Assembly (NCBI GenBank): GCA_903970395.1
Contig: CAJCIM010000009.1
Span: 1 to 64,000 of the forward strand
Direction of reading: 5' to 3'
DNA from: Acidobacteriaceae bacterium
GTDB taxonomy: Bacteria; Acidobacteriota; Terriglobia; Terriglobales; Acidobacteriaceae
DNA: 64,000 bases
The position numbers and the translations under genes were made by a program. Under the pieces are notes generated by a model, which did no database searches, had not been told where the DNA came from, and saw nothing but the letters and a program-made list of their open reading frames with translations. Below, piece by piece: positions 6,488-37,032 of this stretch (positions are counted from its first letter, which is position 1; every line of letters begins with the position of its first letter).

Positions 6488-7492
6488 ATGGTGCGTTTGC
6501 TGATTGTTCGGGTTGGGGCGATGGGGGACGTGCTACATGCTCTGCCGGCTGCGGCTGCGCTGCGCAAAGTGCGGCCGGATTGGAAGATTGACTGGGTGGT
6601 GGATGAGCGGTGGCAGCCGCTGTTGACGGACGATGGACCAGGGCCCGTGGTTGGTGTTTCGTTTGCGGTGCCGGTGCGGGCTTGGAAGCAGGCACCGCTG
6701 TCTCGGGCGACGGTGCGGTCGTTTCTGGAGTTCCGCAGACTGCGCGGCCTTTATGACGCCGTGGTCGATATGCAGGGGACGCTGCGGTCTAGCGCGATCG
6801 GTTGGCTGGCTGGCGGTGGAATGCTGGCGGGGTATGACGATCCTCGCGAGCGGATGGCTAGTGCGCTGTACGGACAGACCTTTCTACGTCAGGGCGGGCA
6901 TGTGGTGGAACAGGGTGCGGCGCTGCTGAGTGCGGTTTGCGGCGTGGAACTGGAGCCGGTTGCGGCTGAGATTCCGCGGACGGAGTGGGCGGAAGAGTGG
7001 GCACGAGAGCTGGTTGGCGAAGACAAAGTCTGCGTGTTGAGCCCGCGGGCTGGGTGGACGACCAAGCAGTGGCCGGTAGAGCGGTTTGGCGAGCTTGCGT
7101 TGCGGTTGCGGGAGCGAGGGTATCGCTGCCTGGTGAATGCTCCACGGAAGGACGATGAGCTTGCCGAGGGCGTGGTTGCGGCCAGCGACGGCGCGGCAGA
7201 GGTTACGGTGTGCAACGTCGCTGGAATGATTGCGCTGGTGCGGCGGGCACGGTTGCTGGTGGGTGGTGACTCCGGGCCGATGCACCTTGCGGCGATACTG
7301 GGGGTTCCTGTGGTGGCACTGTTTGGGCCGACGAACCCGGTGCGCAATGGACCGTGGGGGCCGGGCCCGAAGGCTGTGTTGCGCGATGCGAGTTCGCGGA
7401 ACACGTATAAGCGGTCGGGTGAGGTGGATGCGGGGCTGGCGAAGCTGACGGTGGAACAGGTGGTCGCGGCGGTGGACGGGCTGGGAGTTTGA
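6488..7492 (+). CDS. lipopolysaccharide heptosyltransferase (GT9)
   Basis: ADP-heptose:LPS heptosyltransferase adding heptose to the Kdo-lipid A core. MVRLLIVRVGAMGDVLHALP is the N-terminal nucleotide-sugar fold start, closest in look to WaaC-type enzymes. GGDSGPMHLAAILGVPVVALFGPT is the strongly conserved GT9 C-terminal motif. The ATG at 6488 is used; an upstream in-frame start at 6443 would lie in a repeat-like spacer (gtgggtagacag occurs twice). Part of the waaA-lpxK cluster. Confidence 0.9.
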   Translation: MVRLLIVRVGAMGDVLHALPAAAALRKVRPDWKIDWVVDERWQPLLTDDGPGPVVGVSFAVPVRAWKQAPLSRATVRSFLEFRRLRGLYDAVVDMQGTLRSSAIGWLAGGGMLAGYDDPRERMASALYGQTFLRQGGHVVEQGAALLSAVCGVELEPVAAEIPRTEWAEEWARELVGEDKVCVLSPRAGWTTKQWPVERFGELALRLRERGYRCLVNAPRKDDELAEGVVAASDGAAEVTVCNVAGMIALVRRARLLVGGDSGPMHLAAILGVPVVALFGPTNPVRNGPWGPGPKAVLRDASSRNTYKRSGEVDAGLAKLTVEQVVAAVDGLGV

Positions 7493-7504: not shown

Positions 7505-8098
7505 ATGGGTTCAGGTTCGGCGACGACGCAGACAGGTAAGAGCCGGTGGCAGAAGATCGCGCGCCGGGTACGGGTTCCGCTGGGGTTTGTTGTGGCTGCG
7601 GTGTTTCTGGTGTTTGCACGGCCGACCTGGTTGACATTGGCGTGGAGCCTGCCAGCGGTGCTGGCAGGGTTGTGGCTGCGTGGGTATGCGGCCGGTTATG
7701 TGAAGAAGAACTCCGAGCTGACGCGGACAGGCCCGTATGCCTATACGCGCAACCCGCTGTACCTGGGGTCGATGGCGATTGCGTTTGGGTTTGCGGTGGC
7801 CGCTGGACGGTGGTGGTTGGGCGCTCTGCTGGTGGTGATGTTCCTGGCGATCTATATGCCGACGATCCTTTCAGAAGAGGCATTTTTGCGGGGCGTCTTC
7901 CCTGTCTTTGACGCGTATGCGGCGAAGGTACCGAGGCTGCTGCCGAGGCTGACGCCGGCCCGTTTTGCGGACGTCGAGGGCGGCGGGCGGTTCTCCGGCG
8001 AACGCTACCAGCACCATCGCGAGTACAATGCAGCCATGGGCGCTGCGGCAATTTATGCGGCGCTGCTGTTGCGGATGCTGTTGGCTGGGCATCGCTGA
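7505..8098 (+). CDS. isoprenylcysteine carboxyl methyltransferase-like membrane protein
   Basis: A 197-residue integral membrane protein with about five hydrophobic segments. RTGPYAYTRNPLYLGS (around residues 74-89) is the hallmark of the ICMT/phospholipid methyltransferase (PEMT) fold, which uses S-adenosylmethionine. Bacterial members methylate lipids or unknown small substrates. It starts 12 bases after the heptosyltransferase stop, so an envelope-lipid role is a reasonable inference. Confidence 0.85.
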   Translation: MGSGSATTQTGKSRWQKIARRVRVPLGFVVAAVFLVFARPTWLTLAWSLPAVLAGLWLRGYAAGYVKKNSELTRTGPYAYTRNPLYLGSMAIAFGFAVAAGRWWLGALLVVMFLAIYMPTILSEEAFLRGVFPVFDAYAAKVPRLLPRLTPARFADVEGGGRFSGERYQHHREYNAAMGAAAIYAALLLRMLLAGHR

Positions 8099-10819: not shown

Positions 10820-10952
10820 ACTGCGCGAACCAGGCCCTGATGCTTTCCTGCTTACTTTTAGTCTCGCAAGTTGAGTGGGGTAATTCGTTGCGGGTTATCT
10901 TGCTTGCATTGTTAGACTTGAAGCGAATCGTGGCTTGACAGGAGTTTGTGCG

Positions 10953-12332
10953 ATGGCGGATCAGGTGCTGGAATTTGCGGAGGCGCTGGCGGTGGTGCTG
11001 CGCGAGGCGGCAGGGGTGGCGGCTCCGAGCAAGGTGGAGGACGTGAAGCTGCTGGATGCGACGGGGCGCGTGCTGGCGAAGGCGATTGTGGCCGACCGCG
11101 ATCAGCCTCCGTTTGACCGGTCGACCCGGGATGGGTTTGCGGTGCGAGCAACAGATGTTGGTGAGTCGTTAAAAGTGGTAGGCCAAGTTCGCGCGGGTGA
11201 ACGATGGACGGGAGCTGCGGTGGGAGCGGGTGAGGCGGTGGAGATTATGACCGGGGCTCCGATGCCGAAGGGCGCGGATGCGGTGGTGATGGTGGAGCAT
11301 ACGTCGCTGACGGATGGGATGTTGCGGGTTGAAGCTGGGCGGGTGCTGAAGGCTGGGGAGAATGTAGTGCCGCGTGGAGCGGAGGCTCGGATGGGCGCTT
11401 CCCTTTTGCCGGTGGGGCGTGTGATGGGGCCGGCGGAGATTGCGGTGGCGGCCAGTTGTGGGGCGGCGACGGTGAGCGTGTTTGCGCGACCGATGGTCGG
11501 GATTGTAGCGACGGGGGATGAGCTGGTGGAGGTTGGAGGAGAGCATACCCCAAGAGCCCCTTCCGCCGGCGACGCTAGGTACCCCGACCCTGAAGGACCG
11601 GGGTACCTAGAAGCAGAGGCACGGGAGCGTACATCCCACCTTAGCTCGACGATGAAGCCGTCGAGCGAAGATGGGGCGCCCAGTGGTTTGCGCGAGTTTG
11701 AGATTTATAACTCCAACAGCTATGCGATCTCGGCGCTGGTGAAGGCTGAGGGCGGTGCAGCGGCGCGGCTGGCGATTGCGCGGGACTCGTTTGCCGAGCT
11801 GAAGGAGCGCGTGGAGCGCGGGATGGCCGCCGACCTGCTGGTGCTATCGGGTGGCGTTTCGATGGGCAAGTATGACCTGGTGGAGCATGTGCTGGCGGAG
11901 CTGGGCGCGGAGTTTCTATTTACCGGGGCGAAGATTCAGCCGGGTAAGCCTGTGGTGTTTGGACGGCTGCCAACGTTCGATGCGCAGCGCCCTTGGGTGT
12001 ATTTTTTTGGGCTGCCGGGGAATCCTGTGTCGACGCAGGTTTGCTTTGCGCTGTTTGTGGGGCCGATGCTACGGGCGCTGGCAGGGCGGCGGGAGGTTGC
12101 GCCGGTGTTTGTGGAGGCTAAGCTTGCGGAGGATGTTCGCGGGGGTGCGAAGGTGATGAGGTTTTTGCCGGCGGAGTTGAGTGGAGGCTGGGATGGAGTG
12201 ACCGTGCGGCTGGTGGGGTGGCAAGGGTCGGGCGATGTGGCGGCGAATGCGAGGGGGAATTGTTATTGTGTGTTGCCGTTGGGGGTGGATGCGTTTGCGA
12301 AGGGGGATGTGGTGCGGGTGTTGCTGCGGTAG
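10953..12332 (+). CDS. moeA: molybdopterin molybdenumtransferase MoeA
   Basis: Inserts molybdate into adenylylated molybdopterin, the last step of molybdenum-cofactor synthesis. ATG 10953 lies eight bases after AGGAG. PPFDRSTRDGFAVR (53-66) and IMTGAPMPKGADAVVMVE (98-115) are MoeA blocks; LVLSGGVSMGKYD and FFGLPGNPVST lie in the MoCF domain. Between GDELVEVG and IYNSNSYA the protein has about 50 extra residues (197-248). They are encoded by two different palindromic repeats (11575-11610 and 11635-11680), so the gene has absorbed them in frame. No moaA or moeB is in the window. Confidence 0.93.
   Translation: MADQVLEFAEALAVVLREAAGVAAPSKVEDVKLLDATGRVLAKAIVADRDQPPFDRSTRDGFAVRATDVGESLKVVGQVRAGERWTGAAVGAGEAVEIMTGAPMPKGADAVVMVEHTSLTDGMLRVEAGRVLKAGENVVPRGAEARMGASLLPVGRVMGPAEIAVAASCGAATVSVFARPMVGIVATGDELVEVGGEHTPRAPSAGDARYPDPEGPGYLEAEARERTSHLSSTMKPSSEDGAPSGLREFEIYNSNSYAISALVKAEGGAAARLAIARDSFAELKERVERGMAADLLVLSGGVSMGKYDLVEHVLAELGAEFLFTGAKIQPGKPVVFGRLPTFDAQRPWVYFFGLPGNPVSTQVCFALFVGPMLRALAGRREVAPVFVEAKLAEDVRGGAKVMRFLPAELSGGWDGVTVRLVGWQGSGDVAANARGNCYCVLPLGVDAFAKGDVVRVLLR
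11575..11610. repeat. palindrome CTAGGTACCCCG/CGGGGTACCTAG inside moeA
   Basis: A perfect 12-bp inverted repeat with a 12-base loop (containing CTGAAGG) inside the moeA coding sequence. A shorter relative, CCCGAGCC-TGAA-GGCTCGGG followed by GTACC, occurs in the lhr gene at 27026-27050. It encodes part of the extra residues of this MoeA. Confidence 0.8.
11635..11680. repeat. in-frame hairpin repeat (GATGAAGCC-loop family), moeA copy
   Basis: A hairpin with outer arms CCCACCTT/AAGATGGG, a 7-bp inner stem GCTCGAC/GTCGAGC and the loop GATGAAGCC. Relative to the copies in trmFO and lhr, this stem is one pair longer and its bases are changed on both sides. It is read in frame as SHLSSTMKPSSEDGAP, on the opposite strand sense to the other genic copies. 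Confidence 0.85.
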
Positions 12333-25776: not shown

Positions 25777-25965
25777 CTATTTGTATGGACAGTGGCGGCA
25801 GTCTGAGTTGCAGCAGTAACCGCGGCGCAGGTGGTAGGCGGCGGTGAAGACCATGTAGAGACCTTCCATATAGAAGTCTTCAGGGCGAAGAGGCTCCGGC
25901 GTGAGTGGGGATTCACCGGGTAGCGGCTCTGGCGTTGCGGCAACGGGGGCTTTGGGCTCGGTCAC
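25777..25965 (-). CDS. DUF5522 cysteine-rich small protein
   Basis: A 62-residue protein starting at GTG 25965, which overlaps the lhr stop (GTGA). The proline-rich start is followed by DFYMEGLYMVFTAAYHLRRG and ends CCNSDCRHCPYK, the conserved cysteine cluster of DUF5522 (C-C-x-S-x-C-x-H-C-P-Y), a likely metal site. Function is not known to me. Confidence 0.82.
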   Translation of the reverse strand: MTEPKAPVAATPEPLPGESPLTPEPLRPEDFYMEGLYMVFTAAYHLRRGYCCNSDCRHCPYK

Positions 25966-28900
25966 GAGAAGAGGTCCTGTGTGGTGTTCATCTGCGCGGG
26001 GCGCGGCGGTAGCGTATCCGCGCGGATCACATCAAGTATGGAGCGAGCACGCGATGGTTTGCGTGGAACCCTAATGACGCCTTCTTCCTGAAGGGGAACT
26101 CCATTGACAAACAGTATCTGCTTGCCGGGCGTTGCGGCGACGCGGTCGCCGGGCACGAGGATGCCAACGAGGTTGAGAGGGTCGGCAGCCGTTACAGCGA
26201 TAGGAGCGTCGTTGGCCGCGTCGGCGTAGCGTCTGCGGGCTTCGCGGAGGGAGTCTGCGGCTTCGGGCAGGGCATACTGCTCGCCGAAGGGGCCGCCGAC
26301 GAAGCGGCCGCCGCGGATTTCGCCGCGGGCTTCGAGACGCCGCAGGATAGGAACGAGGTCGCGCCACTTGGGGGCGTTCGATTCGCGGGCGAGGAGGTCA
26401 CGGAAGAGGATTCCGTAGCGACGGAGGAGGATGCGGGCGTGGGTGTCGAGGGCGAGGTCGCGTTGCTTGGCGTCGGCGATGGAGGTCTGCTGAGAACTGG
26501 TGAAATCCTGCAAACCCACCTTAGGTGACGATGAAGCCGTCACCGAAGATGGGGCACCCGGAGTATTGGGTTGTACGAGTAGTGACCATCGGCCTGCGGT
26601 GGTGCGGGCGGCAGCGCGTTTGCGGAGGCTGGTGGCAGTTCCCTGCTCTGTTATGGCAGACTTGCGGCGTGGGTCCATCATGGCGCGGAGCTGGTCGAAG
26701 CCGTCGGCAGCGGCGAGGCCCGCGGTCGCGAGCTCCCAGAGGGCGGTGGATGTTTGCAGGCGCGTGAGACCGGTGATGCGTTGGATGTCGGCAAGGAAGA
26801 CGGCACCTTGCTGCGCTAGTAGCCTGCGAACCTGCTGTGCTTCTGGTGAAAGAGCTTGCGAGAGGACGGACTCGTCGATGGCGCAGGCGGCGAGTGCGGC
26901 ATGCAGCCAGTCGGACGAGTCGCGGAGGTAGAAGGTGATGGGCGCGGCGTTGGTGGGGATAACGCGGCGTGGTCCCTTCTTCACCTCCGGGGCTAAAGCC
27001 CCTTTTTCATGAACAGGCTGTGAGACCCGAGCCTGAAGGCTCGGGGTACCGGATGTTGCGCTGAACCATGCAGGGTGAGGGGAGATGCGGCCCCAGCCGA
27101 TGACGCCGGCGAGCGAGAGGTTGTCGAGCCATTGTGGATCGTAGTTGGCGATGCGTGCAGGAAGCAGGCTGCGCTCCCATTCGACGGCTGGGGCTTCGAA
27201 TCCGTCGAGCTGTTCGAGGACAGCGAGGACACCTTCTTCGCCGGTAAGCTGCGTGTTCGGGGCGAGGTGCTGCCAGTCGAGGAGCCAGCGCATGAAGATC
27301 GCTGGTGTCGCAGGCTCGACCTGCTTGCGAAGTGAGGTGAGGGTCAGGCGGTGGACGCGCTGGAGGATACGGCGCTCGCACCACTCGATCTCGAAGGGCG
27401 CGTCGTCTGCGGGTTTGGGTTGTTCGAAGACGCCGCGCATGGCGAGGCCCTGCATCTCCATGGCGACGAAGGCTTGATGGAGAGAGCGCGGATGGAGTTG
27501 CGTGATGGCTGCCAGCTCGGTGGCAGTGGTGGGGCCAAGGAGTTGCAGCCAGCCTTGTGTGAGTGATGTTGTGGCGGCGTCACGCGTAACGATAGGTTCT
27601 GTGCCGGGTTGAGAAGCAGATCCTTCGCTATGCTCAGGATGACCATCATTGAAGGCCGTTCGCCATAACAATCTGGCTTCAGGGAGGCGTTCGGTGGCGA
27701 TCCATGCGGGCGTGCCGTCGAGGGGGATAAGGTGCGCGCGGTTCTGCGTGGCGAGCTGCTCGAAGAAGAGCGGCCAGTGGCGGGTGTCGCTCTTCTTGCT
27801 GGACTGCGCGGCGAGCCAGTCGACGGGCAGAGCGATGAGTTGCAAAAGAAGATCGTGAAGTTCGTGCTCGTCGCGGATGTCGGGCCAGAGCTGTTCGCGG
27901 ACGGTGGCGATGGCTGCAGGGTCGATGCGACCTGCGGCGTCTGCGACCGCGTCGGGCAAGGCGCTGCGTAACGAGGTAGCGCGGGTGCGGCGCTCTTCTG
28001 CCCCTGCTTCATCGAGGAAGGCGTAGGGCATTGCGTTGACGAGTTCGTGCGCGAAGACGCTTGGCACGGGCGTGTCGATGGCTACGCAGTTGATTGCGCC
28101 GGATGCGATGCCGCGAAGAACTTCGAGCAGGCCTTCGATGTCCATCGCTTCGGTAAGCGTGTCCTTCATGACCTCGTTGACGAGCGGGTGATCGGGGATC
28201 TCGATGTCGCCGGTCATGGTCTCGGGGCAGGCAGAGGCGTGCGGGAATACGCTGGCGAGGAGGTCGTCGGAGCGTGTGCGCTGGATCTGCGGAGCGACGC
28301 GTTTGCCCTTCTGCATGCGGAGCAGTTGCAGGCTGCGGCCTGCGGCCCAGCGCCAGCGGTTCTTGAAGAGTGGGGACGGGATGGATGCTTGTTCGAGAAG
28401 TTCGCGTGCGGTTTGTTCGGTGAGGAAGTGGAAGACGTCGGCGAGCGGGAAGCTGTGCTGCTCGGCGAGGGAGATGTTGATGCCATTATCGGTGGCCGCA
28501 GCTTGCAGCTCGAAGTTGAAGCCTCGGCAGAATCGTTTGCGGAGAGCGAGGCCCCAGGCTTTGTTGAGGCGACCACCGAAGGGTGTGTGCAGGATGAGCT
28601 GCTGGCCTCCGCCTTCGTCGAAGAAGCGTTCGGCGACTATGGTCTGCTTGGTAGGGACGACGCCAAGAGCGGCGCGGCCGGCGACGATGTAGGTGATGAG
28701 TTGCAGTGCCGCGGAGTCGCAGAGATAGCAGGTCTCTTTGAGCCAGGTGATGCAGCCGGCGACCTCAGGGTGCGCGGGGCGTACGGCTGTTGGTGCGACG
28801 GAGCGTGTGCGCCGGTCGATTTCGGAGCGGAGAGCTGATACTCCATCTGAGACGACGCTGGTGCGCTGTGGGGCTTCTCCCTCCCAAAAGGGGATGCTGG

Positions 28901-30710
28901 GCGGAGCGCCGTGGGCGTCTTCGACAAGGACCTTGCCAGCGGCTTCGACGCGCTGGATGCGCCAGCTGGTGTTGCCGAGGAGGATGACGTCTCCGGGAGA
29001 GCTATCGACGGCGAAGTGCTCGTCGAGGGTGGCGATCTGCACGTTCTCCGGCTGGAGCATGACGGCGAAGATGCTGGTGTCGGGAATGGCTCCGCCGTTG
29101 CCGATAGCGATGCTGCGTGCGCCGCGGCGGGCGTGGAGTTGGCCTTGCACGCGGTCGCGCAAGATGTACGCGCCGTAGCGGCCGCGGGAGCTTTCGATGC
29201 CGTTGTGCAGAAGGCCGAGGAGCTGCTCATAGAGTTGCGGTGTGAGGTTGCGGAATGGGTACGCGCGGCGCAGAGCGTTGTAGAGCGCGGTTTCGTCCCA
29301 GCTTTCAGCACCGACGGCAGCGACGATCTGCTGCATGAGCACGTCGACGGGAAGCTCGGGGACTTCGAGGACGTCGAGTTCGCCGGCGGTCATCTTGCGG
29401 AGGAGCGCAGACTGCTCGAGGAGATCATCGCGCGTGGTGGCGAAGAAACGGCCTTTGGGCGTGGCTCCGCGCCAGTGGCCGGCGCGGCCTACGCGCTGCA
29501 TCGCTACTGCGACGGAGCGTGTTGTGGCGATTTGGCAGACGAGGTCGACCGAACCGATGTCGATGCCTAGTTCAAGTGAAGCCGTGGCGATGAGGATCTT
29601 GATCTCGCCGCGCTTGAGGCGCTGTTCGGCATCGAGGCGCAGAGCGCGGGCGAGTGAGCCGTGGTGTGCGGAGACGGCGTCTTCGCCAAGACGTTGGCTG
29701 AGCTCGAAGCTGATCTTCTCGACGAGCTTGCGCGTGTTGACGAAGACAAGTGTAGAGCGATGATGCTCGGTGAGCGCGGCGAGCTTGTCGAAGATCTCCT
29801 GCCACATGGCGGTGGAGCAGATGGAGCCGAGTTCGTCGGAGGGGACTTCGATGGCGAGGTCGAGCGTGCGGCGTTGGCCAACCTGGATGATGGTGGCGGC
29901 TTTGCGTGTGACCTCAGCTTCCTGCGAACCCACCTTAGCCGACGATGAAGCCGTCGGCGAAGATGGGGCACCCAGATGTACGCCGGTGAGGAAGTTGGCG
30001 ACGAGTTCGATGGGGTTTTGCGTGGCTGAGAGGCCGATGCGTTGCGGCGGTGTTGCGAGACCGGTGAGCATTGCGCCGGGCGAGAGGCGATTCTCGCCGC
30101 AGACGAGGGCGTCAAGGCGTTCGAGCGAGAGAGCGAGGTGCGCGCCGCGCTTGTCGTCGGCGATGGCGTGGATCTCGTCGACGATGAGCGTGCGGACGCG
30201 AGTGAGGTTTTGTCGGCTCTTGCCAGCGGTGAGCAGGATGTAGAGCGACTCCGGAGTGGTGACGAGGATGTGCGGCGGATGCTTGAGCATCGCCGTGCGG
30301 TCTTTCGTCGGCGTGTCGCCGGTGCGGACGCCAGTGCGAATGGGCGTGCAGAGATAGCCACGTGCTATAGCCAACTGCTGAATCTCCGCCAAGGGAAGAT
30401 CGAGGTTCTTCTGGACGTCGTTGGAGAGCGCCTTAAGCGGCGAGACATAGACGACTTCCGTCTGCGGAGCGAGGCGGCCTTCGATGGACTTGCGCAGCAG
30501 CGCGTCGATGCAGACCAGGAAGGCTGTGAGCGTTTTGCCTGAACCTGTTGGTGCGGAGATGAGTGTTGGGTCTCCGCGCAGGATGGCGGGCCAGCCTGCG
30601 ATCTGCGGTTCGGTCGGAGAGCCGAACTTCGTCAGGAACCACTCCTGCACGACGGGGTGCGCCCAAGCGAGCGCGGGATGCGTGAGGGTCTCTGTGGCGG
30701 AAGCGGCCAT
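25962..30710 (-). CDS. lhr: giant Lhr-type ATP-dependent helicase
   Basis: About 1,582 residues. ATG 30710 opens directly before the helicase core. APTGSGKT (53-60) is Walker A; LIVDEIHAIADDKRG with DEIH at 178-181 is Walker B; GLSATQNP is motif III; VAMQRVGRAGHWRG is motif VI. A long C-terminal region (Lhr-CTD-like) follows. Lhr is a 3'-5' helicase active on DNA and RNA. Residues 247-263 and about 1386-1402 are the same inserted hairpin repeat. Other repeat-derived peptides lie near 1021-1036 (GHPEHSEGSASQPG) and 1217-1242. So the gene carries at least four repeat insertions and stays open. The DUF5522 start overlaps its stop. Confidence 0.9.
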   Translation of the reverse strand: MAASATETLTHPALAWAHPVVQEWFLTKFGSPTEPQIAGWPAILRGDPTLISAPTGSGKTLTAFLVCIDALLRKSIEGRLAPQTEVVYVSPLKALSNDVQKNLDLPLAEIQQLAIARGYLCTPIRTGVRTGDTPTKDRTAMLKHPPHILVTTPESLYILLTAGKSRQNLTRVRTLIVDEIHAIADDKRGAHLALSLERLDALVCGENRLSPGAMLTGLATPPQRIGLSATQNPIELVANFLTGVHLGAPSSPTASSSAKVGSQEAEVTRKAATIIQVGQRRTLDLAIEVPSDELGSICSTAMWQEIFDKLAALTEHHRSTLVFVNTRKLVEKISFELSQRLGEDAVSAHHGSLARALRLDAEQRLKRGEIKILIATASLELGIDIGSVDLVCQIATTRSVAVAMQRVGRAGHWRGATPKGRFFATTRDDLLEQSALLRKMTAGELDVLEVPELPVDVLMQQIVAAVGAESWDETALYNALRRAYPFRNLTPQLYEQLLGLLHNGIESSRGRYGAYILRDRVQGQLHARRGARSIAIGNGGAIPDTSIFAVMLQPENVQIATLDEHFAVDSSPGDVILLGNTSWRIQRVEAAGKVLVEDAHGAPPSIPFWEGEAPQRTSVVSDGVSALRSEIDRRTRSVAPTAVRPAHPEVAGCITWLKETCYLCDSAALQLITYIVAGRAALGVVPTKQTIVAERFFDEGGGQQLILHTPFGGRLNKAWGLALRKRFCRGFNFELQAAATDNGINISLAEQHSFPLADVFHFLTEQTARELLEQASIPSPLFKNRWRWAAGRSLQLLRMQKGKRVAPQIQRTRSDDLLASVFPHASACPETMTGDIEIPDHPLVNEVMKDTLTEAMDIEGLLEVLRGIASGAINCVAIDTPVPSVFAHELVNAMPYAFLDEAGAEERRTRATSLRSALPDAVADAAGRIDPAAIATVREQLWPDIRDEHELHDLLLQLIALPVDWLAAQSSKKSDTRHWPLFFEQLATQNRAHLIPLDGTPAWIATERLPEARLLWRTAFNDGHPEHSEGSASQPGTEPIVTRDAATTSLTQGWLQLLGPTTATELAAITQLHPRSLHQAFVAMEMQGLAMRGVFEQPKPADDAPFEIEWCERRILQRVHRLTLTSLRKQVEPATPAIFMRWLLDWQHLAPNTQLTGEEGVLAVLEQLDGFEAPAVEWERSLLPARIANYDPQWLDNLSLAGVIGWGRISPHPAWFSATSGTPSLQARVSQPVHEKGALAPEVKKGPRRVIPTNAAPITFYLRDSSDWLHAALAACAIDESVLSQALSPEAQQVRRLLAQQGAVFLADIQRITGLTRLQTSTALWELATAGLAAADGFDQLRAMMDPRRKSAITEQGTATSLRKRAAARTTAGRWSLLVQPNTPGAPSSVTASSSPKVGLQDFTSSQQTSIADAKQRDLALDTHARILLRRYGILFRDLLARESNAPKWRDLVPILRRLEARGEIRGGRFVGGPFGEQYALPEAADSLREARRRYADAANDAPIAVTAADPLNLVGILVPGDRVAATPGKQILFVNGVPLQEEGVIRVPRKPSRARSILDVIRADTLPPRPAQMNTTQDLFS
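26508..26560. repeat. in-frame hairpin repeat, second lhr copy
   Basis: Same architecture as the trmFO copy, but the inner stem reads GGTGAC/GTCACC. Both sides differ from GCCGAC/GTCGGC yet still pair. It encodes GAPSSVTASSSPKVGLQ in lhr. Confidence 0.88.
26989..27050. repeat. two different palindromes inside lhr
   Basis: GGGGCTAAAGCCCC (26989-27002) is followed by CCCGAGCC-TGAA-GGCTCGGG (27026-27045) and GTACC. Both are perfect inverted repeats lying in frame within the lhr C-terminal region. The second resembles the palindrome in moeA at 11575-11610. Confidence 0.75.
27605..27650. repeat. 'gatccttcg...ctcaggatgac' repeat inside lhr
   Basis: This short dispersed sequence (agatccttcgctatgctcaggatgac) is common in acidobacterial and other soil genomes. 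It is translated in lhr as GHPEHSEGSASQPGTEP, an obvious non-native stretch. Confidence 0.65.
29921..29973. repeat. in-frame hairpin repeat, first lhr copy
   Basis: Identical over about 55 bases to the trmFO copy at 1681-1733. Encodes lhr residues 247-263 (GAPSSPTASSSAKVGSQ), after NFLTGVHL and before the EAEVTRKAATIIQVG segment. Confidence 0.9.
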
Positions 30711-30742
30711 GAGAGATTGTAGCGCTTCGCGGTTTGTTCGCC

Positions 30743-31225
30743 CTAGGAAATGTTCGGGGCCGCGGCTTGCCAACACGCGGCGAGGACCAGCAGAGTGGTA
30801 ACGGTTGTGGCGTGCAGGATGACGTGCAGAGTGTTGACGGTGATGCCATTGCGGGCCGGAAGGAAGGAGTGGGTGCCGGCGAACATCACCTTGTATCGGG
30901 CGACGCGCTCAGGCTGTATGCGCCCGAAGTATGGAATCCACCAGGCCTGGAGCTCGCCGATGAAGAGGAGCAGATAGCTGATCGATAGATACAGAAGCAG
31001 CCAGTGCGGATAAGGGCCGTGGAGATGAGGGATACTGGCCGCGAATCCGAAGAGGAAGAAGCTGCTGCTGGCGAGCGTTGCGATGAGCAATTTGCTGAGT
31101 GAGTTCTCGGCGCGGACGGCGGCGATGTTGCTGAGGGTGCCGAGCGGAATCCAGTCGTGCAATAAGAGGAAGACAACGTGGAATGCCTGGAGCGCGAACA
31201 ACAGATCGAACAGTATGGGTCGCAT
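30743..31225 (-). CDS. four-helix integral membrane protein of unknown function
   Basis: A 160-residue protein starting at ATG 31225 after a GAGG box. Hydrophobic segments at about 5-24 (FDLLFALQAFHVVFLLLHDW), 45-65 (LIATLASSSFFLFGF), 75-95 (LLLYLSISYLLLFIG) and 135-155 (ATTVTTLLVLAACW). A charged loop with GRIQPERVARYKVMFAGTHSFLP lies between helices 3 and 4. The frame runs open upstream but overlaps kdsC in another frame there. No family recognised. Confidence 0.7.
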   Translation of the reverse strand: MRPILFDLLFALQAFHVVFLLLHDWIPLGTLSNIAAVRAENSLSKLLIATLASSSFFLFGFAASIPHLHGPYPHWLLLYLSISYLLLFIGELQAWWIPYFGRIQPERVARYKVMFAGTHSFLPARNGITVNTLHVILHATTVTTLLVLAACWQAAAPNIS

Positions 31226-34067: not shown

Positions 34068-34085
34068 TGGGAAGCTCCTTTGGGG

Positions 34086-34136
34086 ATCAGGGGTTAGGGA
34101 TTAGGGGTTAGGGATTAGGGGTTAGGGATTAGGGGG
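34086..34136. repeat. telomere-like G-tract repeat
   Basis: Three tandem copies of a 14-base unit ggggttagggatta, followed by a further G-run. The plus strand contains seven runs of three or more G spaced by TTA or ATTA, able to form a G-quadruplex, and includes TTAGGG. It lies immediately upstream of the minus-strand orphan gene. Confidence 0.8.
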
Positions 34137-36987: not shown

Positions 36988-37032
36988 GCGAACCCCACTC
37001 ATGACGATGAGACTGTCATGAATGGGGCACCC
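36988..37032. repeat. hairpin repeat (GATGAAGCC-loop family), intergenic copy
   Basis: CCCCACTCATGAC pairs with GTCATGAATGGGG around the loop GATGAGACT. The inner stem TCATGAC/GTCATGA differs from GCCGAC/GTCGGC on both arms yet stays complementary. The flank is again GGGGCACCC. This is the only copy of the family outside a gene in the window. Confidence 0.85.

Follow-up and report, generated by a model that had tools for sequence, protein, structure and literature searches.

Two palindromes within an inserted loop of moeA

The moeA gene lies on the forward strand at positions 10935 to 12332 of the 64,000-nucleotide stretch of DNA analyzed here (the window), which comes from a 3.82-Mb draft genome of 214 contigs. 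Its open reading frame encodes 465 amino acids with matches to the Pfam domains MoeA_N, MoCF_biosynth, and MoeA_C. Alignments with PDB structures and with relatives delimit an inserted loop at residues 199 to 251 (11529 to 11687, +), which holds two different palindromes. The first, at 11575 to 11610, reads CTAGGTACCCCG-ACCCTGAAGGAC-CGGGGTACCTAG, has perfect 12-bp arms (11575 to 11586 and 11599 to 11610), and translates as ..RYPDPEGPGYL... The second, at 11635 to 11681 (+), is a REP-type hairpin in its 47-nt form, recognized by a covariance-model match and by its frame; it reads CCCACCTTA-GCTCGACG-ATGAAGC-CGTCGAGC-GAAGATGGGGCGCCC, pairs 11644 to 11651 with 11659 to 11666 as its inner stem, and encodes SHLSSTMKPSSEDGAP. 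Both are in frame, the moeA open reading frame runs through them uninterrupted, and a 131-nt stretch of moeA gave a folding z score of −4.98 against dinucleotide shuffles. A first-pass annotation had described these two palindromes with coordinates that are correct to within one base. Its 7-bp stem for the hairpin stands if the outer G-C pair is left out; counting that pair, the inner stem is 8 bp.

The same annotation held that moeA contains the variant that fits its frame and that a “6-bp-stem” version, which corresponds to the 45-nt form, would give TGA there. Substitution in silico bears this out: the 45-nt version yields CAC CTT AGC CGA CGA TGA, with a stop at codon 240. The 43-nt version is free of internal stops, but the frame downstream of it is shifted and meets a stop at codon 268, and the inverted 47-nt form also creates a stop. 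Of the 43-, 45-, and 47-nt forms, the 47-nt form as oriented here is the only one to read through.

The MoeA loop comprises about 53 residues here versus 5 in E. coli MoeA (PDB alignment). Most same-genus MoeA proteins have only a few residues at this site when aligned, and comparably long segments occur in just two species. The moeA of the closest species, G011, has the 47-nt hairpin in common and additionally carries two copies of the first palindrome and GGGGCTAAAGCCCC, and in that of G005 other palindromes fill the same loop site. The loop thus collects palindromes, in these two relatives as well. The first palindrome has the arrangement ATGAGA-CCCGACCC..GGGTCGGG-GTACC in G011, as it does in most members of its family; the copy studied here differs in that its left flank is now the complement of its right flank, which produces the long perfect arms. 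We infer that these arms look like the outcome of quasipalindrome correction, possibly templated.

Repeat families and associated transposases

A strict pattern for the hairpin found 45 matches in the genome, compared with 0 to 1 for a reversed control, and a covariance model found 103, of which approximately 80 belong to the CTTAG family that includes the moeA copy and approximately 20 to a sister CACTCATG family. The core of the hairpin repeat is 43 to 47 nt. The first palindrome was assigned, from its sequence, a family search, and the orthologous G011 loop, to a second family (the CCCGACCCTGAAGGGTCGGG family, roughly CCCGRNCCTRAAGGNYCGGG), for which this genome and two relatives contain many matches and a reversed control yielded none. 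Neither moeA palindrome is a chance event, because both belong to repeat families and reversed controls give close to zero matches. That the 12-bp palindrome is a one-off was considered and is ruled out by its membership in the second family, its long-armed version being the sole strict match in the genome.

An open reading frame for a PF01797 transposase with an EHVH motif (C160:7258-7725) lies between inverted copies of the hairpin at 7174 to 7216 (+) and 7742 to 7784 (−), and the arrangement is a REPtron-like unit. Public records place the hairpin repeat in Granulicella, Edaphobacter, and other Acidobacteriaceae. The aligned copies and their flanks show no GTAG or GTGG tetranucleotide immediately 5′ of the stem, and we therefore do not class the hairpin as a GTAG REP.

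The sister family has a 39-nt copy in the window at 36994 to 37032 (+), found by covariance-model match and census, that lies outside a coding frame. Another copy of that family (C108:8715-8753 in G000) adjoins a second IS200-like transposase gene (C108:8252-8575), which suggests that the transposases are specific to each family. The window also contains a 14-nt unit, TTAGGGATTAGGGG, in tandem copies at 34080 to 34135.

Hairpin length, location, and reading frame

By our count a 45-nt copy has a 7-bp stem and a 43-nt copy a 6-bp stem. Copies were retrieved by searches and as stretches around the matches. A copy counted as genic if it was open throughout in one frame, with flanks scoring above 5 bits and at least 20 open codons on each side; scores came from a codon-usage model that had been trained on the window and was applied to both 180-nt flanks. 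In this genome 25/27 of the 45-nt copies were genic, compared with 2/32 of the 43-nt copies (p = 3.6e-12). This result was repeated in other species and a second genus: under the same rule, other genomes of the genus gave 24/28 versus 1/59 (p = 2.8e-16), further public loci 1/1 versus 2/46, and the second genus 1/1 versus 2/15, its sole 45-mer lying inside uvrA in the expected frame. Pooled over this genome and the examined copies in related genomes, 51/57 of the 45-nt copies and 7/152 of the 43-nt copies were genic (Fisher p ≈ 5e-34). At least two of the “non-genic” 45-mers, one in HslU and one from G011 in the orthologue of a further host, are probably genic. Two caveats apply: genic status depends on the window-trained codon model, with only ten hosts confirmed by family models, and some sites are common to several species, so that not all copies are independent.

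Hairpin length also predicts the reading frame of a genic copy. Genic 45-nt copies are read from the minus strand in phase 1 in 50/52 cases, giving the peptide (L/P)GAPSSPTASSSAKVG, and the two exceptions are read from the plus strand in phase 0. Genic 43-nt copies are read in phase 2, from the minus strand (VPHLRDGFIVAKVG, n = 6) or the plus strand (n = 1), and the 47-nt copies, those of moeA in two species, from the plus strand in phase 2. None of 100,000 shuffles of the 61 genic copies matched this length-frame association, and after orthologous sites were collapsed by inspection, p was still approximately 1e-7. The moeA copy, at 47 nt and in the opposite orientation, is thus an exception among genic copies and not the type. 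The first-pass annotation had proposed that stem length sets the reading frame, a proposal that a genome-wide count without such a link would have refuted; tabulation of stem length, orientation, and frame instead revealed a very strong one. The word “sets” does not survive, however: there is no physical setting of the frame, and we infer that length limits which insertions survive.

The frames in use contain no stops and no TTA, CTA, or AGG codons, except in the two copies read from the plus strand in phase 0. In the long open reading frames of the window, 1.6% of leucine codons are TTA, and this rare codon explains only partly why minus-strand phase 1 is preferred over the likewise open plus-strand phase 0. 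Internal stops were considered as the cause of the length split and are ruled out, since four frames are open in the 43-nt form and three in the 45-nt form. It is also ruled out that 43-mers are hidden in frameshifted genes; flank scoring found none among 91.

Host proteins and upkeep of the hairpin

NCBIfam models identified nine hosts, TrmFO, QueA, HisRS, PolA, GlmS, HscA/DnaK, RimO, UvrA, and HslU, and a tenth host protein best matched TrpE models. Within the window, model matches and frame place 45-nt copies in trmFO (gene at 1010 to 2416, −; copy at 1689 to 1733, +, with the minus-strand reading LGAPSSPTASSSAKVG) and twice in lhr (gene at 25962 to 30776, −; copies at 26515 to 26559, +, with the minus-strand reading PGAPSSVTASSSPKVG, and at 29929 to 29973, +, reading LGAPSSPTASSSAKVG). 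A family search placed a copy of the first-palindrome family (CCCGAGCCTGAAGGCTCGGG) in frame in lhr at 27026 to 27045 (+). This helicase gene accordingly holds two 45-mers and one CCCGAGCCTGAAGGCTCGGG palindrome, plus a GHPEHSEGSASQ stretch similar to a further family of coding palindromes.

The hairpin segments are missing from solved MoeA, GlmS, and UvrA proteins, and in relatives the corresponding host loops are short or have the segments replaced. The corresponding loops of G011 TrmFO, Lhr, PolA, and RimO (L252, L255, L259, and L253) hold a different palindrome-like peptide, DVSSRPERSEVERPASG and its variants, and those of HisRS and UvrA are short; several palindrome families seem to use common loop sites. 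Comparison with relatives indicates net gains of only roughly 10 to 20 residues, and the exact insertion ends or target site could not be defined from these relatives, in which the loops vary and often contain other palindromes. Across 39 distinct genic 45-mers, every stem pair is intact in at least 38 and compensatory changes are numerous, and the hairpin is therefore maintained inside coding sequence.

Interpretation

The best explanation, to which we assign a probability of roughly 0.72 without mobility or protein data, is a REP-type hairpin whose frame-keeping insertions have been filtered by selection. The moeA hairpin would be a copy of an Acidobacterial mobile palindrome of REP type, probably moved by a RAYT-like HUH transposase, although movement by RAYT is inferred. 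Its ordinary form is the 43-nt form between genes, and one more stem base pair, adding 2 nt, gives another length modulo 3 and other open frames. Inside genes, an insertion presumably survives only if it preserves the frame, is free of stops, and has no very rare codons. That purifying selection acts as the filter is likewise an inference, whereas the link of length to location and frame that it would account for is observed. The 45-nt form read as GAPSSPTASSSAKVG would be by far the commonest survivor, occupying variable loops of housekeeping proteins as a linker rich in Ser, Ala, and Pro, in hosts whose identity is established and at sites where many relatives lack the segment. Translation into the finished protein is inferred, and conservation of the hairpin is observed; compensatory changes would keep its DNA form intact. 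The moeA copy would represent a rarer solution, 47 nt long, in the opposite orientation, and beside a palindrome of the second family.

Survival of in-frame insertions accounts for the direction of the effect and may not account for its size, because 45-mers are nearly absent between genes. It is conceivable, and we hold it as a tentative second reading that falls somewhat short of even odds, that 45-nt copies derive mainly from other 45-nt copies by spread from gene to gene. They would then form a self-propagating, protein-adapted lineage, able to dwell in proteins through a length that is a multiple of three and a single frame free of stops and rare codons, apart from an intergenic sister one base pair shorter, the 43-nt form. 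At most 6/57 of the 45-mers are intergenic, below expectation for random insertion of a rare variant, but this calculation assumes a coding share and full tolerance and is weaker when the coding share is set to its upper bound of 92%. A flank, TCCTGCGAA, is common to many genic 45-mers and missing from most 43-mers, yet it also occurs on some 43-mers. One frame dominates genic 45-mers, as such a lineage would have it.

We consider it unlikely that the inserts were retained since the linker peptide or an mRNA hairpin helps the host protein or its expression. Some inserts are common to several species (in GlmS, TrpE, and others), and the elements there are conserved at least as well as their flanks, but re-copying of the hairpin may account for that conservation, the hosts are functionally unrelated, and many relatives lack the segments or carry other palindromes in the same loops. 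An artifact of draft assembly or of wrong coding calls, for which a genome in 214 contigs and a coding status taken from a codon model give some opening, can be set aside given 0 to 1 matches for reversed-pattern controls, replication in other assemblies that include the single-contig genome of G011, and ten hosts that match NCBIfam families. Selection for benign insertions that keep the frame explains most of the pattern, and a separate lineage that dwells in proteins remains possible but unproven.

The hairpin is a clear natural example of a mobile DNA element that is constrained both to keep a foldable stem and to encode a harmless peptide, with a single base pair dividing the genic from the intergenic mode of life. 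The range of protein-coding palindromes grows with it to include a major soil phylum and core enzymes such as UvrA, PolA, GlmS, HisRS, and RimO, and the old question of selfish, tolerated, or useful inserts becomes testable in culturable species. For annotation the hairpin carries a warning that such segments are mobile DNA and not conserved protein sequence.

Comparison with known systems

We found no account of in-gene palindromes from Acidobacteria in the literature, a search limited to open-licence papers. In kind, the hairpin resembles the palindromic elements of Rickettsia and intragenic REPs. The palindromic elements of Rickettsia (RPE) are mobile repeats of 105 to 146 bp that lie in frame in conserved protein genes, and at least one host enzyme has been shown to be translated and active while carrying its insert (PMC2229807). 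The hairpin described here likewise lies in frame in conserved protein genes; unlike RPE, it is 43 to 47 nt long, Acidobacterial, and of unrelated sequence, and both location and frame are predicted by its length.

REPs and REPtrons (RAYT/TIRYT) are imperfect palindromes of short length and high copy number, chiefly intergenic with some in genes such as uvrA, and the paper that describes them treats Acidobacterial transposases with flanking inverted repeats as a group set apart (Di Nocera et al. 2013, PMC3733652). The present element resembles them as a short palindrome in many dispersed copies with an IS200-like tyrosine transposase between inverted copies. On the mainly extragenic location of REPs it is divided by length: 145/152 of the 43-nt copies are not genic, whereas 51/57 of the 45-nt copies are genic. 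It differs in two ways: the aligned copies showed no GTAG tag, and in-gene copies form a separate length class with one dominant frame.

The Correia/NEMIS elements of Neisseria also comprise two size classes of one element with different locations. Their 107-bp form has open frames and is often intragenic, and their 155-bp form, found almost only between genes, has stops in all frames, which the split follows (PMC2229807). In contrast, more frames are open here in the intergenic form than in the genic form, and length modulo 3 must therefore matter. Relative to RPE, intragenic REPs, and Correia elements, what appear to be new are the phylum, the peptide, and a length split that stop codons do not explain.
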